Assembly: GCF_001696715.1 (NCBI RefSeq)
Contig: NZ_MBFM01000002.1
Span: 1-64,000, forward strand
Length of the DNA: 64,000 nt
Reading direction: 5' to 3'
Source of the DNA: Thauera phenolivorans
GTDB lineage: Bacteria; Pseudomonadota; Gammaproteobacteria; Burkholderiales; Rhodocyclaceae
The notes under the pieces: generated by a model
What the model was told of the DNA's origin: nothing
What the model saw: the letters and a program-made list of their open reading frames with translations, nothing else
Database searches by the model: none
Made by a program: the position numbers and the translations under genes
In this document: positions 54,789 through 63,753 of the stretch, one piece after another
Layout of the letters: every line of letters begins with the position of its first letter
How positions within the stretch are numbered: the first letter of the stretch is position 1

Positions 54789-54870
54789 GTAGCAGCCCCC
54801 GCCCCCAGGGCGATAGCGGCCGTCATCGTGGGCACCACCGCCGTCATCGCGCACAGGGGTGCGCTCCTAC
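54789..54870 (-). repeat. REP pair, reverse orientation, upstream of RAYT
   Basis: 82 bp: begins GTAGCAGCCCCCGCCCCCAGGGCGAT and ends ATCGCGCACAGGGGTGCGCTCCTAC. The right-arm head is mutated (GTAGCAG for GTAGGAG). It flanks the transposase gene on its 5' side. Confidence 0.88.
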
Positions 54871-54972
54871 ACCACCATCGAGCCCAATACATTGGGAGAT
54901 ATTCTTTTAGCATTTTCCCGTTGTCCTGCAATACACTCGCCTGACCCCTCCCGCCCGCTGATCCCGTCTGCC

Positions 54973-55429
54973 ATGGCCCCCATCCACGCCAACCCGTCCC
55001 CACGCCAGCGCGCTGCGTCGCGGGCGCTGGTCGGAGCGCGGGCGGGTCTATCTGATCACCACCGTCACCGACGGCCGCGTGCCCCTTTTCGATGAAATCC
55101 TCTGCGCCCGCGCCGTCGTTCGCGCGCTGATCCGCGCACAGGCGCTCGGCCAGGCGGACACGCTCGCCTACGTGCTGATGCCCGATCACCTGCACTGGCT
55201 GATGTCGCTCGGCGACGCGGCGGAGCTATCGCTGGTGGTGCGCGCGGTGAAATCGCTGAGCACGCGCGAAATCGGCCGGCCGGTGTGGCAGCGCGGCTTC
55301 CACGATCGCGCCCTGCGGCGCGAAGCGGACCTGCGCCAGGCCGCGCGCTACATCGTCGCCAACCCGCTGCACGCCGGAATCGTCAGCAGGGTAGGGGAGT
55401 ATCCGCACTGGGATGCGGTGTGGTTGTAG
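54973..55429 (+). pseudogene. REP-associated tyrosine transposase (RAYT), frameshifted near the start
   Basis: A Y1/IS200-like transposase of the RAYT group, ~150 residues in all. HUH motif in LMPDHLHWLM, catalytic Tyr in ARYIVANPLHAGIV, and the group-typical RGRWSERGRVYLITTVTDGR and GFHDRALRREADL. The only ATG (54973) is one frame off from the conserved body. Removing one C from the CCCC run at 54998-55001 joins MAPIHANPS to HASALRRGRWSERG. Otherwise translation could only begin at GTG 55079, losing a conserved strand. It is flanked by REP elements, its presumed substrates. A sequencing error is possible. Confidence 0.85.
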
Positions 55430-56118: not shown

Positions 56119-56811
56119 ATGCGCCTGCCGCCGGTCACCGCGCTGCGCCGCATCGACACCGTCCGCCTCATCCCCTCGCGCTTCGCCGACCAGGAAGACT
56201 CGGTGCTCGCGCCGCTGGCCGAGGACGACGCCCACCTGCGCGAACTCTTCGAGCTCGACAACGCCACCAACGCCCGCCTGCTCGGCGAACAGGGCCGGCT
56301 CGCCGGCATCGGCATCGACGAGCTCGTCTTCGGCGTGCCCAACTTCCGCATGATCAACGCCGCCTTCTGCTACCCGCGCCCCGAAGGCAGCCGCTTCAAC
56401 GACGGCGAGCGTGGTGCCTGGTACTGCGCCTTCGAGGAAGACACCGCGCTCGCCGAGATCGTCTTCCACAAGACGGTCGAGTACCAGGAAATCGACCGCT
56501 TCGACGACAGCGTCCGCTACCAGGCCCTGCTCGCCGACTTCAGCGCCGGCTTCCACGATCTGCGCGAGGCCCCCGCGTTCGCCGACTGCCTCGACGCGCG
56601 CAGCTACGTCGCCTCGCAACGCCTCGCCCTCGAGCTGCTCGGCGGCGGTTCGCTGGGTGTGATCTACCCCAGCGTGCGCCGCGCCGGCGGCACCAACCTC
56701 GCGTGCTTCCGGCCGGCGCTGGTGAACAACGTGCGGCGGGGGAGCGCCTGGCAGCTCACCTGGGCGGGCGGCCCGACGCCGCGGGTGGAGCAAGTGGCGC
56801 GCGATGTATGA
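56119..56811 (+). CDS. RES domain toxin (NAD+-degrading)
   Basis: A ~230-residue RES-domain protein; characterised members deplete NAD+ by phosphorolysis or hydrolysis and stop growth. The domain is visible as PRPEGSRFNDGERGAWYCAFEEDTALAEIVFHK (cited by parts: the Arg, Tyr and Glu in SRF, AWYCA and LAEIVFH are the usual active-site residues). The longer-than-usual N-terminus contains RIDTVRLIPSRF. Start is ATG 56119, or GTG 56113, which overlaps the antitoxin stop. REP elements follow at once. Confidence 0.88.
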   Translation: MRLPPVTALRRIDTVRLIPSRFADQEDSVLAPLAEDDAHLRELFELDNATNARLLGEQGRLAGIGIDELVFGVPNFRMINAAFCYPRPEGSRFNDGERGAWYCAFEEDTALAEIVFHKTVEYQEIDRFDDSVRYQALLADFSAGFHDLREAPAFADCLDARSYVASQRLALELLGGGSLGVIYPSVRRAGGTNLACFRPALVNNVRRGSAWQLTWAGGPTPRVEQVARDV

Positions 56812-56823
56812 TCGAGCCCCACC

Positions 56824-56903
56824 GCAGGAGCCCTGCCCTCAGGGCGATGGCCGCCGTTATCGCGGCACAGACGCCGTCATCGCGCAGAGGGCTGCGCTCC
56901 TAC
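56824..56903 (-). repeat. REP pair, reverse orientation (array unit 1)
   Basis: 80 bp from GCAGGAGCCCTGCCCTCAGGGCGAT to GCGCAGAGGGCTGCGCTCCTAC. The head is GCAG rather than GTAG. The next unit begins exactly 105 bp later. Together with the next units it fills the 290-nt interval between the RES toxin gene and cysQ. Confidence 0.88.
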
Positions 56904-56928
56904 ACCACCCGCGTCGTTCGCAGGCACC

Positions 56929-57010
56929 GCAGGAGCCCTGCCCTCAGGGCGATAGCCGCCGTTACCGCGGGCACCACCGCCGTTGATCGCGCAGAGGGCT
57001 GCGCTCCTAC
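56929..57010 (-). repeat. REP pair, reverse orientation (array unit 2)
   Basis: 82 bp from GCAGGAGCCCTGCCCTCAGGGCGATA to CGCAGAGGGCTGCGCTCCTAC; 105 bp after the start of unit 1. Confidence 0.88.
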
Positions 57011-57036
57011 ACCCCCCGGGCCCCATCGCAGGTACC

Positions 57037-57062
57037 GTAGAGCCCTGCCCTCAGGGCGATCC
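57037..57062 (-). repeat. REP half-element (array unit 3)
   Basis: GTAGAGCCCTGCCCTCAGGGCGAT: right arm in reverse orientation with two bases lost after GTAG; the left arm is missing. It starts 108 bp after unit 2 and ends just before cysQ. Confidence 0.75.
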
Positions 57063-57101
57063 ACGGCGTTCGTACCATCGACACCGCCCCTACCCAACGA
57101 C

Positions 57102-57881
57102 ATGCACCCCGACGAACTAAAACATCTCCTCGATTCCGTCATCCTCATCGTCCGCGCCGCCGGCGAGCTGGTGATGGCGGTCTACCGCACCGACTTCGAG
57201 GTGCGCAGCAAGGACGACGCCTCGCCGGTGACCGAGGCCGATGCGCGCGCCGAAGCGCTGATCGTCCCTGCGCTGCAGTCCCTGCTGCCGGGCGTGCCGG
57301 TAATCGCCGAGGAGGCGGTGGCAGCGGGCGACGCGGTGCAGACCGGCCCGCGCTTCTGGCTCGTCGATCCGCTCGACGGCACGCGCGAGTTCATCGGCCG
57401 CAACGGCGAATTCACCGTCAATGTCGCGCTGGTGGAGGCGGGCCGGGCGGTGCTCGGCGTGGTGCTCGCGCCGGCGATCGACCGGCTCTTCGCCGGCGCC
57501 GCAGGCCTGGGCGCCTTCGTCGAGGAGGCCGGCGCGCGCCGCCCGATCGCCTGCCGCCCGCCGCCCGCGCAAGGCCTCACCGTCGTCGCCAGCCGTTCGC
57601 ACGCCGACCCCGCCGCGCTCGACGCCTTCCTCGCCGGCCGCCACGTCGCCGAGCTGCGCAGCGCCGGCTCCTCGCTCAAGCTCTGTCTGATCGCCGCTGG
57701 CGAGGCCGACCTCTACCCGCGGCTGGGGAGGACGATGGAATGGGACATCGCCGCCGGCCACGCCATCCTCGCCGCCGCCGGCGGGCGCATCGAGGATGTG
57801 CACGGCAGCACGCTGCACTACGGCAAACCCGGCTTCGAGAATCCGCATTTCGTGGCGATGGGTCGGCGCTCTGGGCGGTAA
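57102..57881 (+). CDS. cysQ: 3'(2'),5'-bisphosphate nucleotidase CysQ
   Basis: A 259-residue Mg-dependent phosphatase of the IMPase superfamily that converts 3'-phosphoadenosine 5'-phosphate to AMP during sulfate assimilation. Motifs: VIAEEAVAAGD, FWLVDPLDGTREFIGRNGEF and MEWDIAAGHAILAAAGG. ATG 57102 begins the family start HPDELKHLLDSVILIVRAAGE; the open frame upstream is translated REP sequence and is excluded. Bracketed by REP elements on both sides. Confidence 0.92.
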   Translation: MHPDELKHLLDSVILIVRAAGELVMAVYRTDFEVRSKDDASPVTEADARAEALIVPALQSLLPGVPVIAEEAVAAGDAVQTGPRFWLVDPLDGTREFIGRNGEFTVNVALVEAGRAVLGVVLAPAIDRLFAGAAGLGAFVEEAGARRPIACRPPPAQGLTVVASRSHADPAALDAFLAGRHVAELRSAGSSLKLCLIAAGEADLYPRLGRTMEWDIAAGHAILAAAGGRIEDVHGSTLHYGKPGFENPHFVAMGRRSGR

Positions 57882-59684: not shown

Positions 59685-60365
59685 GTGATCCTTCTCCGCC
59701 CCCCCTTGATGCGGTCGCTCGCCGCCGTGGCGGCCAGCCTCGCGCTCGCCGGCTGCTCGCCGCTGATGCAGGGCTCGGTCGACACCCTGAGCGCGGCCCT
59801 GTCCGGCCCGCCCGAGCTCGTCGTCACCCGCGACGAGGTCGTCGCGCGGCCGTACTACCAGCTCCGGCTGGACAGCCCCTGGGGTTCTGCGGTGATGGCG
59901 CTCGGCCGGGTCGAGGGCAGCCGCGAATACTGGGCCACCTCCAGCGGCCAGGTGCTGCTGATCGAGCACGGCCTGGTGCGGCGGGCGGTGGGTTTTCCGG
60001 AGACGCTCGAAGCCACCCGCTTCGTTGACGGCAGCGCCGACCCCTTCGCCGCCGGCCTGCACCGCATCGCCGACGGCGCCACCCACGTGCGCGAACTCGA
60101 CTGGATGCCCGGCTATCGGCATGGGGTGAGGCTGCATTCGCGCTTTACGCGCGGCGGGCGCGAAGCGGTGGAGATCCTCGGCGAGCGACGGGAGCTGCTG
60201 CGCGTCGACGAGCGGATCGAGGCGGAGGGCGGCGCGTTCAGGACCCTGCACAGCTACTGGCTCGATCCCGACGACGGCTTCGTCTTCGTCAGCGTGCAGG
60301 AGCCCGTGCCCGGCATGGCATTGCGGATCGCCCAGCTCCGCCCGTATCGGGATGCCGCGCAATGA
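59685..60365 (+). CDS. gfcB: YjbF/GfcB family capsule lipoprotein
   Basis: A ~226-residue lipoprotein of the YjbF (group 4 capsule lipoprotein, DUF2886-like) family. Signal peptide MRSLAAVAASLALAGC with a clear lipobox; Cys is residue 24 from the GTG. Beta-rich mature part with GSAVMALGRVEGSREYW. Start is GTG 59685 or ATG 59709; the latter gives a compact signal peptide. The stop overlaps the ATG of gfcC (ATGA), so the two are coupled. Confidence 0.85.
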   Translation: MILLRPPLMRSLAAVAASLALAGCSPLMQGSVDTLSAALSGPPELVVTRDEVVARPYYQLRLDSPWGSAVMALGRVEGSREYWATSSGQVLLIEHGLVRRAVGFPETLEATRFVDGSADPFAAGLHRIADGATHVRELDWMPGYRHGVRLHSRFTRGGREAVEILGERRELLRVDERIEAEGGAFRTLHSYWLDPDDGFVFVSVQEPVPGMALRIAQLRPYRDAAQ

Positions 60366-61300
60366 CGCCCGCCAATCCGCACCCCCCCTGTAGGAGCGCT
60401 GCCCCCAGCGCGATCAACGGCGGCCGTGCCGGTGACGACGGCTGCTATCGCCCTGAGGGCAGGGCTCCTACATCGCCCTGGGGGCAGGGCTCCTACGGTG
60501 CCTTCGGCACTCGGTTTTGTAGGAGCGCTGCCCTCAGCGCGATCACCGCCGTCCTCTGCCTGACCACCACCCCCGCTGCCGCCCAATCAACGGTCACCGT
60601 CGACGGCCGGGTGGCGAAACCCGGCGCGCACGCGCTGCAACCCGGCGCCCGACTGTTCGACGCCGCCCACGCCGGCGGGGTCAAACCCGACGCCTATCTC
60701 ACCGGCGCCGCCTGGCTGCGGCGCGACGAACTCAAGCCCCAGCGCGCGCTCAAGGTCGGTCTGCTGTTCGACCTGCGCACGCTGGAGCAGGGCGCTTTCG
60801 CCGAGGGCGACGAGGCACTCGCCGCACTCGCCGGCCGCCTCGCCGCCCAGGTGGGCGCGCTGCCGGTCACCGGCCGTCGCCGCAACACCCTCGACCCCGT
60901 CCGCCTCGAGCTCGAGCCGCGCAGCAACCGCCCGCTCGGCGCCGGCGACCGCCTGATCTACCCGCCGCGCCCGACCACCGTCACCATCACCGGCGCGGTC
61001 GAGGCCGACTGCGTGCTGCCCTTCGTCGGCCTGCGTTCGGCTACCGCCTACGCCGCCGACTGCCCGCGCCACGCCGCCGCCGACACCGACTGGCTGTACG
61101 TGATCCAGCCCGATGGCGTGGTGAGCCGCCACGGCGTCGCCGGCTGGAACCGCGACCCCGCCCAGCCGCTCGCCCCGGGCGCGCGGGTCTACGTCCCCCT
61201 GCGCCAAGCGCTGGTGGAGGGCAGGGCGATCGAGCTCAACGACGACTTCGCCGCCTTCCTCGCCACCCAGCCGGTGGCGATCGAGGAGGGCGGACGATGA
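60362..61300 (+). CDS. gfcC: GfcC/YjbG family capsule protein with REP-derived N-terminus
   Basis: A 312-residue periplasmic protein. The body (from QSTVTVDGRVAKPGAHALQPGARLF, read in parts) has the beta-grasp (SLBB-like) domains of GfcC, proposed to aid capsule export. ATG 60362 overlaps the gfcB stop. The first ~65 residues are translated REP sequence: two copies and a half. The last half REP encodes CRSAALSAITAV, which runs straight into LCLTTTPAAAQ and appears to be the hydrophobic core of the signal peptide. No in-frame ATG/GTG/TTG lies close to this core, so initiation must be upstream. Confidence 0.82.
   Translation: MTPANPHPPCRSAAPSAINGGRAGDDGCYRPEGRAPTSPWGQGSYGAFGTRFCRSAALSAITAVLCLTTTPAAAQSTVTVDGRVAKPGAHALQPGARLFDAAHAGGVKPDAYLTGAAWLRRDELKPQRALKVGLLFDLRTLEQGAFAEGDEALAALAGRLAAQVGALPVTGRRRNTLDPVRLELEPRSNRPLGAGDRLIYPPRPTTVTITGAVEADCVLPFVGLRSATAYAADCPRHAAADTDWLYVIQPDGVVSRHGVAGWNRDPAQPLAPGARVYVPLRQALVEGRAIELNDDFAAFLATQPVAIEEGGR
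60390..60471 (+). repeat. REP pair inside gfcC, forward orientation
   Basis: Begins GTAGGAGCGCTGCCCCCAGCGCGAT 28 nt after the gfcC start codon and ends GCCCTGAGGGCAGGGCTCCTAC. Read in the gfcC frame it gives CRSAAPSAINGG at its start. Confidence 0.9.
60472..60496 (+). repeat. REP right-arm copy inside gfcC
   Basis: ATCGCCCTGGGGGCAGGG then CTCCTAC, directly abutting the previous element; a solitary right arm. Confidence 0.88.
60519..60553 (+). repeat. REP left-arm copy inside gfcC signal peptide
   Basis: GTAGGAGCGCTGCCCTCAGCGCGATC, followed by ACCGCCGTCC. It encodes RSAALSAITAV in the gfcC frame, continuous with the signal peptide core. Confidence 0.88.
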
Positions 61301-63753
61301 GCCAAGCCAGGATCGCCCCGCGCCCCCACGGTGCCGCCACCCCCTGTAGGAGCGCAGCCCTCTGCGCGATAGCGGCGGTTGGGCCGAAGATGCGGCCGTT
61401 ATCGCCCTGGGGGCAGGGCTCCTACCACGGGCACGGCGGTGCCGTCCGCTGTAGGAGCGCAGCCCTCTGCGCGATAACGGCGGTTGGGCCGGCGATGCGG
61501 CTGTTATCGCCCTGGGGGCAGGGCTCCTACGACGAGCGCGGCGGTGCCGTCCCCTGTAGGAGCGCAGCCCTCTGCGCGATAGCGGCGGTTGTGCCGGCGG
61601 TGCGGCGGTTATCGCCCTGGGGGCAGGGCTCCTACAGGGGCTGGCTCGCGGCGAGCCTGATCGCGTTCGCGCCGGCGATGCATGCGCAGGACGTGGGCCC
61701 GGCGGGCCCGCGCCCGGTCGCAAGTGACTTCGGCGGTGTCGGCCTGCTGCAGATGCCCACCGCACGCATGGCCGAGGCCGGCGAACTGTCGGTGCATTTC
61801 AGCAAGGTCGACCCCTACACCCGCTTCGGCCTCACCCTGCAGCCCTTCGACTGGCTCGAAGCCACCTTCGCTTACACCGACATCCGCAACCGCCTCTACG
61901 GGCCCGCGATCGCCGGCGATCAGAGCCTCAAGGACAAAGGCTTCGACTTCAAGCTGCGCCTGCTCGAAGAAACCGCCCACCGCCCCCAGCTCGCCCTCGG
62001 CGCCCGCGACATCGGCGGCACCGGCCTCTTCTCCGGTGAATACCTCGTCGCCAGCAAGCGCCACGGCACGCTCGACTTCACCCTCGGCCTCGGCTGGGGC
62101 TATCTCGGCAATGCGGACAACGTCGCCAACCCGCTCGGCTGGCTGGACGACCGCTTCGATCGCCGCCCCGGGCGCGAGTCAGGCGACCAGGGCGGCAACG
62201 TCAACACCGACGCGTGGTTCCGCGGCCCTGCCGCGCTGTTCGGCGGCGTGCAGTGGCAGACCCCGTGGGCGCCGCTGCAGCTCATCGTCGAATACGACGG
62301 CAACGACTATTCCAACGAGCCGCAGAACAACGACCAGGACCACGACTCGCCCTTCAACCTCGGCGCCGTCTATCGGGTCAACGACTGGCTCGACCTGCGC
62401 GCCGGCTGGGAGCGCGGCAACACCGCGATGATCGGCGTCACCCTTCACGCCAACCTCGCCCGCCGCAGCGCGCCGCCCAAGCTCACCGACCCGCCCGCGC
62501 CGCCGCTGCGCACCGGCCCGCGCCCCAGCCGCGCCGCCGAAGCCGGCCAGGACTGGGCCCAGGTCGCGCGCGAGCTCGAAGCCAACGCCGGCTACCGCGT
62601 CAGCCGCATCGCCCGCCGCGAGCGCGAGATCGTCGTCGAAGGCGAGCAGACCCGCTACTTCCACGCCCCCAAGGCGATCGGCCGCAGTGCGCGCATCCTC
62701 GACCACGCCGCCGCCGAGGACGTCGACTGGCTCACCGTGGTCGACCACCGCGCCGGCATGCCGGTCGCCGAGACCAGCCTCAACCGCGAGGCCTTCCGCG
62801 CCGCCGCGGCCGAGGACGGCGACGCGGACGCGCTCGAGACCCTCATCCGCAGCCTCGAGCACAACGACCCCAGCCCGCGCCGCGACACCGAGCTCTTCGC
62901 CCAGACGCCCGCGCCCTTCACCTGGGGCGCCGGCCTCGGCTACCGGCAGAACCTCGGCGGCCCCGACAGCTTCATCCTCTACCAGCTCAGCGCCAACCTC
63001 GACGCCGAGTACCGCTTCGCTCCCGGCACCTGGCTGGCGGGCCGGCTCAGCGGCAACCTCGCCAACAACTTCGACCGCTTCGACTACGACGCCCCCAGCG
63101 GCCTGCCGCGGGTGCGCACCGACCTGCGCTCGTACTGGACCGAATCCGACCTCACCCTGCCGCTGCTGCAGCTCACCCACGCCCGCCGGCTCGGCGGCGA
63201 GCTCTTCGGCATGGTCTACGGCGGCTATCTCGAATCCATGTTCGCCGGCTTCGGCGCCGAGCTGCTGCACCGGCCGATGAACAGCGACTGGGCGCTCGGC
63301 GTCGATTTCAACTGGGTCAAGCAGCGCGACTTCGACCAGGACTTCGGCCTGCGGAACTACGACACGGTCACCGGCCACCTCACCGGCTACTATCGCGGCC
63401 TCGACGACGTGCTCGCCAAGCTCAGCGTCGGCCGCTACCTGGCCGGCGACTACGGCGCCACCCTCGACCTCTCGCGCGAGTTCCACAATGGCGTGCGCTT
63501 CGGCGCCTGGGCCACCGTCACCGACGCCTCCGACGAGGAGTTCGGCGAGGGCAGCTTCGACAAGGGCATCTACGTCTCGATCCCCTTCGACGAGCTCATG
63601 ACCACCTCCACCCTGCGCCGCGCCGAGCTGGTCTTCGCGCCGCTCACCCGCGACGGCGGCGCCCGCCTCGAGCGCGCCTACGGTCTGTTCGGCCTCACCG
63701 AAGGCCGGCACACCAAGCTGTTCCAATCCAACCACGACAAACTCACCGATTGA
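61297..63753 (+). CDS. gfcD: YjbH/GfcD family outer-membrane barrel with REP-coded N-terminal repeats
   Basis: An 818-residue protein of the YjbH/GfcD family, predicted outer-membrane beta-barrels for group 4 capsule or exopolysaccharide export. Body: FGGVGLLQMPTARMAEAGEL at the start, many alternating aromatic strands, and a C-terminal half with SRGLDDVLAKLSVGRYLAGDYG-like repeats. ATG 61297 overlaps the gfcC stop (ATGA). Residues ~15-113 are three tandem 35-residue repeats (CRSAALCAIAAV ... LSPWGQGSY) translated from three REP pairs; only then comes the likely signal peptide GWLAASLIAFAPAMHA. Internal in-frame ATG and GTG codons in the repeats could serve as starts. Confidence 0.85.
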   Translation: MSQARIAPRPHGAATPCRSAALCAIAAVGPKMRPLSPWGQGSYHGHGGAVRCRSAALCAITAVGPAMRLLSPWGQGSYDERGGAVPCRSAALCAIAAVVPAVRRLSPWGQGSYRGWLAASLIAFAPAMHAQDVGPAGPRPVASDFGGVGLLQMPTARMAEAGELSVHFSKVDPYTRFGLTLQPFDWLEATFAYTDIRNRLYGPAIAGDQSLKDKGFDFKLRLLEETAHRPQLALGARDIGGTGLFSGEYLVASKRHGTLDFTLGLGWGYLGNADNVANPLGWLDDRFDRRPGRESGDQGGNVNTDAWFRGPAALFGGVQWQTPWAPLQLIVEYDGNDYSNEPQNNDQDHDSPFNLGAVYRVNDWLDLRAGWERGNTAMIGVTLHANLARRSAPPKLTDPPAPPLRTGPRPSRAAEAGQDWAQVARELEANAGYRVSRIARREREIVVEGEQTRYFHAPKAIGRSARILDHAAAEDVDWLTVVDHRAGMPVAETSLNREAFRAAAAEDGDADALETLIRSLEHNDPSPRRDTELFAQTPAPFTWGAGLGYRQNLGGPDSFILYQLSANLDAEYRFAPGTWLAGRLSGNLANNFDRFDYDAPSGLPRVRTDLRSYWTESDLTLPLLQLTHARRLGGELFGMVYGGYLESMFAGFGAELLHRPMNSDWALGVDFNWVKQRDFDQDFGLRNYDTVTGHLTGYYRGLDDVLAKLSVGRYLAGDYGATLDLSREFHNGVRFGAWATVTDASDEEFGEGSFDKGIYVSIPFDELMTTSTLRRAELVFAPLTRDGGARLERAYGLFGLTEGRHTKLFQSNHDKLTD
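61346..61425 (+). repeat. REP pair in gfcD, array unit 1
   Basis: 80 bp, GTAGGAGCGCAGCCCTCTGCGCGATA ... TTATCGCCCTGGGGGCAGGG-CTCCTAC. First of three forward copies spaced exactly 105 bp apart. Confidence 0.93.
61451..61530 (+). repeat. REP pair in gfcD, array unit 2
   Basis: 80 bp, same structure; separated from unit 1 by a 25-bp spacer containing GGCGGTGCCGTCC, which also follows unit 2. Confidence 0.93.
61556..61635 (+). repeat. REP pair in gfcD, array unit 3
   Basis: 80 bp; the third copy. Directly after its CTCCTAC end comes AGGGGCTGGCTCGCGGCG, the coding sequence of the likely signal peptide. Confidence 0.93.

Follow-up and report, generated by a model that had tools for sequence, protein, structure and literature searches.

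A REP element may supply most of the signal peptide core of GfcC in Thauera phenolivorans

The DNA analysed here (the window) is a stretch of 64,000 nucleotides from Thauera phenolivorans (contig NZ_MBFM01000002.1, positions 1 to 64,000). A domain search showed that it ends in a group-4-capsule-like operon comprising a Wza-type export protein, gfcB, gfcC and yjbH. The stop codon of gfcB (59685–60365, forward strand; PF11102, 96.8 bits) overlaps the start of gfcC (60362–61300, forward strand), which confirmed the ATGA-coupled start at ATG 60362 given in the original prediction. The gfcC product of 312 amino acids matched PF06251 (50.3 bits, cut-off 20) and PF20616 (26.3 bits, cut-off 22.1), and the downstream neighbour yjbH (also named gfcD; 61297–63753, forward strand; PF06082, 858.9 bits) is again ATGA-coupled, with an AGGAGG 7 nt upstream of its ATG.

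The first 61 codons of gfcC hold four REPs, all read in frame. REP 1 (60390–60414, forward strand) has no mismatch to the family pattern; its partner REP 2 (60447–60471, reverse strand) has two mismatches to the main pattern and none to the partner pattern; and REP 3 (60472–60496, reverse strand) directly abuts REP 2. REP 4 (60518–60553, forward strand, including a 10-nt tail; core at 60519–60543, no mismatch) is therefore preceded by three whole REPs and not, as first described, by two copies, while its description as a half REP was apt, since the copy at 60519 has no inverted partner. REP 4 and its tail encode CRSAALSAITAV, with the core match reaching as far as the I codon, and the translation runs straight on, as had been claimed, into LCLTTTPAAAQ (60554–60586, forward strand) and the mature GfcC domain. 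The gfcC frame contains no ATG, GTG or TTG between ATG 60362 and GTG 60611, the latter lying inside the mature part, so the claim that no start codon lies nearer also held. A start inside a REP was considered and rejected on the same ground: the REP carries an AGGAG, but no in-frame ATG, GTG or TTG follows until GTG 60611, and start codons other than these three are unlikely.

The yjbH gene reads 16 codons, then three tandem REP pairs (61345–61635, forward strand; 97 codons in frame, period 105), then RGWLAASLIAFAPAMHAQ (61636–61689, forward strand), identified from translation and hydropathy as the native hydrophobic core and signal peptide end, and then the YjbH domain. The REP frame is the same in both genes and gives CRSAALCAIxAV three times in yjbH. 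With the array left out, the native yjbH core is intact (hydropathy 2.04 over 10 residues); the REP-encoded segments ahead of it are more hydrophobic, reaching 2.82 over 10, and about 117 residues separate the start from the signal core. Internal ATG or GTG codons in yjbH (61390, 61495, 61591 and 61600) could be usable as later starts. The two arrays are near-identical repeats within a draft assembly and differ in layout: abutting REPs of the same orientation occur at 60447–60496 in the gfcC array (60434–60556), whereas the yjbH array (61346–61635) alternates.

The REP pattern consists of GTAG, GAGCGCAG, CCCT, CTGCGC and GAT, together with a partner type, and thus has the GTAG head and GC-rich palindrome of such elements. 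Pattern matches in the window numbered 20, compared with 0.00 expected, and the main pattern matched the genome 144 times at ≤3 mismatches, compared with 0 in the reversed-pattern control. With two variant patterns added (three patterns in all), at least 151 REPs in at least 61 clusters were found, in a census that is not exhaustive, as at least two more REP-like places occur (C7:359328 and C7:626453). The REPs form inverted pairs, I1–I3 among them, and in most clusters the orientations alternate. The REPs lie mainly outside genes: among the 61 listed clusters, judged by coding score and by eye with the single-REP cluster C10:129089 left undecided, only the gfcC and yjbH arrays lie between a start and a domain. 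The cysQ reading frame (56703–57881) extends upstream without a stop codon, across an array of four REPs, as far as a GTG, and ATG 57102 lies behind the array, close to the start of the CysQ model; the upstream GTG is likely a wrong start of automatic annotation. At four places (C8:526816, C9:634222, C10:159089 and C10:247382; loci L093, L103, L105 and L108), a well-scoring upstream ORF ends at the TAG of the REP's GTAG, an arrangement already described for GTAG REPs in passages of PMC3733652.

A REP-associated tyrosine transposase (RAYT) open frame is located at 54962–55429 on the forward strand, 5 kb upstream of gfcC (NF047646, 137.1 bits, cut-off 80, model positions 1–146 of 146; PF01797, 24.6 bits); neither it nor the yjbH array formed part of the original prediction. 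It is flanked by REPs at 54846 (reverse) and 55519 (forward), and no Y1_Tnp match besides it was found in the genome. Its conserved part begins ahead of its only ATG, GTG or TTG (GTG 55079), implying that the frame may lack a usual start; the start may be unusual or the gene damaged. Of the 151 listed REPs, 18 lie within the 6.9 kb that begin shortly ahead of the RAYT and end with the yjbH array, a crowding consistent with the local spreading described for Thauera in passages of PMC2817692.

Scanning a genome collection for YjbH gave seven loci, of which one strain accounted for two. In the two closest, from Pseudomonas panipatensis (L043, 61%) and a Dechloromonas MAG (L044, 57%), gfcB, gfcC and yjbH are separate genes whose starts overlap and are immediately followed by ordinary signal peptides, and no REP at ≤3 mismatches was found in either locus (about 12 kb each). 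These results indicate that the gfcC and yjbH ATGs are native and that the arrays lie between a native start and a native signal core. In six more distant homologues of the order (L050, L054, L057, L058, L060 and L066), GfcC and YjbH form one continuous ORF and hence give no information on the gfcC/yjbH junction. Within the genus, YjbH was found in two of 29 genomes, its own included; in the other (G021, 53%), GfcC-like and YjbH sequence share one open frame. GfcC was found in seven of 61 relatives, again with its own counted. In Pseudidiomarina aestuarii (L045, 4719–4892), the yjbH N-terminus is likewise stretched before the hydrophobic core and holds four palindromes like TGTCAAWTGACA; eight of the nine strand matches in this 12-kb locus fall in the yjbH N-terminus, and two of 200 shuffles reach nine. 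These palindromes are perhaps operators, or another repeat at the same position.

The inserts measure 165 nt in gfcC and 291 nt in yjbH, both multiples of three and free of stop codons. Stop-free frames numbered 37 of 150 in 25 other arrays with at least three REPs, and 9 of 60 in the 10 arrays with at least four. Multiplied by one third for length at each junction, these figures give a chance of about 0.0041 or 0.0025 that both junctions are in frame and open. Composition shuffles left a frame open in 35.7% (gfcC) and 17.5% (yjbH) of cases, so that openness in itself is not striking, and gave a joint chance of about 0.007 after the same multiplication. The overall range of about 0.003–0.007 comes from rough nulls and concerns a case that was picked after being seen.

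The gfcC N-terminus is signal-like with the REP codons and not without them, a conclusion supported by hydropathy, the sole measure used to judge signal-likeness: the best 10-residue value was 2.47 as found and 1.18 for the flanks without array and tail, compared with 2.79 in P. panipatensis, 2.06 in Dechloromonas, 2.51 in L050 and 2.46 in L060. Without the REP codons, gfcC has neither a hydrophobic core nor an Arg ahead of one; with them, RFCR is followed by AALSAITAVLCL, whose hydropathy is 2.36–2.71 (windows of 12 to 8 residues). A Sec signal peptide is cut behind small residues at −3 and −1, and inspection of the putative cut site showed A-A-A-Q. However, a Sec signal peptide is short and near the start, and the gfcC core begins at about residue 55 from ATG 60362. 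A lipoprotein signal was rejected, since in both A-V-L-C and A-A-L-C the residue directly before Cys is Leu, contrary to a lipobox.

The 8 nt after the REP 4 core showed a mean identity of 0.57 to the 45 REP-pair spacers, a weak resemblance on a scale where random 8-mers give 0.40 (5% reaching at least 0.57) and spacers among themselves 0.64; pieces beyond those 8 nt resembled spacers at the random level. These results suggest that native gfcC sequence resumes at about LCL, with the origin of TAV left uncertain. A spacer origin of LCLTTTPAAAQ, which is unlike the REP-pair spacers, was accordingly rejected, and its codons were taken as native.

The reading that we favour, by a modest degree of confidence, is that REPs landed behind native overlapping starts and remain read through, and that in gfcC REP 4 now supplies most of the signal core. 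REPs would have spread locally by means of the RAYT 5 kb upstream and reached the gfcC and yjbH junctions; as overlapping starts leave no intergenic space, every insertion there would fall inside an ORF. The arrays now present at both junctions are in frame and stop-free, and ribosomes setting out from the native ATGs would read through them. In yjbH, the array would only lengthen the stretch ahead of an intact native core. In gfcC, an in-frame deletion probably removed the partner of REP 4 and the beginning of the native core, as suggested by the missing partner together with flanks that make no signal peptide; the missing partner by itself proves nothing, because unpaired REPs are common (a recognisable partner within 60 nt was found for 45 of 73 REPs of REP 4's type). 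RSAALSAI(TAV) from the REP would then give the Arg and the greater part of the hydrophobic core, and native LCLTTTPAAAQ would complete the signal. Translation from ATG 60362, the deletion, Sec export and cleavage of GfcC are all inferred from sequence, and a signal core so far from the start (about 55 residues in gfcC, 117 in yjbH) is unusual and speaks against this reading.

The strongest alternative, although we consider it unlikely, is that a recent insertion disabled GfcC export, the hydrophobic REP stretch being accidental and the gene not yet decayed. The gfcC REP copies show no mismatches to the family patterns, and the pattern is nearly confined to this genome (at ≤2 mismatches, 26 of 28 other genus genomes have none and two have one match each), implying that the insert may be young. 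The codon-usage score of 60362–60586 was −0.07 per codon, compared with +0.49 for the domain; such a missing signal is expected of a recent insert. Moreover, two of the six REP frames are clearly hydrophobic anyway (means 1.28 and 2.01), so that a signal-like REP frame is neither rare nor a great surprise. On the other side, frame and openness are kept at two adjacent junctions, the gfcC and yjbH domains are intact, and all four intervals in yjbH keep the period of 105, whereas only 9 of 39 intervals in other arrays are divisible by three, a comparison that is weak because the four intervals overlap. The claim that a REP had been taken over as a Sec signal therefore stood in part: the REP is in frame behind a native ATG and raises hydropathy into the range of the homologues, but "taken over" may be too strong, given the hydrophobic REP frames, the missing codon-usage signal and the near-absence of the pattern from the 28 other genus genomes, which leaves little time to show that the REP is kept by selection.

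A later start of translation, behind the arrays, would make the REPs 5′ untranslated and coding by annotation only. Di Nocera et al., in passages of PMC3733652, suspect misassigned starts for many N-terminal REPs, which would then be extragenic, and in yjbH GTG 61591 and GTG 61600, in the last REP pair, could give a shorter signal peptide. We regard this as quite improbable here: gfcC offers no start codon ahead of GTG 60611, the overlapping ATGs are native by the two orthologues, and the AGGAGG lies 7 nt from the yjbH ATG, whereas nothing comparable was seen by eye at the internal GTGs.

It is likewise quite improbable, though compatible with the favoured reading, that RNA-level effects on differential expression within the operon are what keeps the arrays, with their coding incidental, for although they fold beyond shuffles (z −4.60 in gfcC, −5.92 in yjbH) and passages of PMC3733652 suggest that REP arrays by EPS genes direct or modulate expression in Thauera MZ1T, REPs fold by construction, so that strong folding is no evidence of use, and local spreading (passages of PMC2817692) would lead one to expect crowding near the RAYT.

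The favoured reading of read-through REPs can be extended, as a tentative and rather doubtful proposal, to a general one: a RAYT-driven REP would now function as Sec signal core in a conserved periplasmic protein, the REP frame RSAALxAIxAV being a ready-made core; the stretch between an overlapping start codon and the core would let REPs enter genes and be kept; and REP spread could make secretion signals. REPs are regarded as lying outside genes, and where they seem to code for an N-terminus a misannotation is considered probable. The present operon holds a built-in comparison, with the native core displaced in gfcC and kept in yjbH, and so offers a direct test of whether secretion signals can come from mobile repeats. 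Signal cores at such distances from the start also call for caution in signal-peptide prediction and gene finding.

Related cases have been published (PMC3733652 and PMC2759123). Among the matches listed in the open-access literature, none described a RAYT-type REP as a signal peptide; the passages of PMC4784049 contain none of the capsule terms looked for, and those of PMC3116915 concern extragenic REPs. What is possibly new here is that the hydrophobic core of a conserved exported protein would come from a REP. According to passages of Nunvar et al. 2010 (PMC2817692), Thauera is a betaproteobacterium with Pseudomonas-like REPs, more than one third of them near the rayt gene; these are the same type of element, but that work concerns spread and not coding use. 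The system reviewed in 2008 (passages of PMC2229807) is a MITE-like 168-bp repeat in a putative new protein, whereas gfcC combines a RAYT REP, a conserved protein and an orthologous native signal. Passages of Di Nocera et al. 2013 (PMC3733652) report REPs inside genes, Thauera included, many at the N-terminus, with REP clusters encoding 43–82 amino acids in Thauera and R. conorii. Those intragenic GTAG REPs resemble the present ones in type (GTAG head), in-frame position and neighbourhood of EPS genes; unlike our proposal for gfcC, the passages mention no REP-encoded signal peptides, and they consider that most of the N-terminal cases may be extragenic. The Rickettsia palindromic elements (Ogata et al. 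2000; 19 reading frames, as reviewed in passages of PMC2229807) are likewise palindromic, in frame and tolerated in conserved genes, whereas the gfcC and yjbH arrays occupy only two adjacent N-termini and are proposed to have a signal-peptide role.
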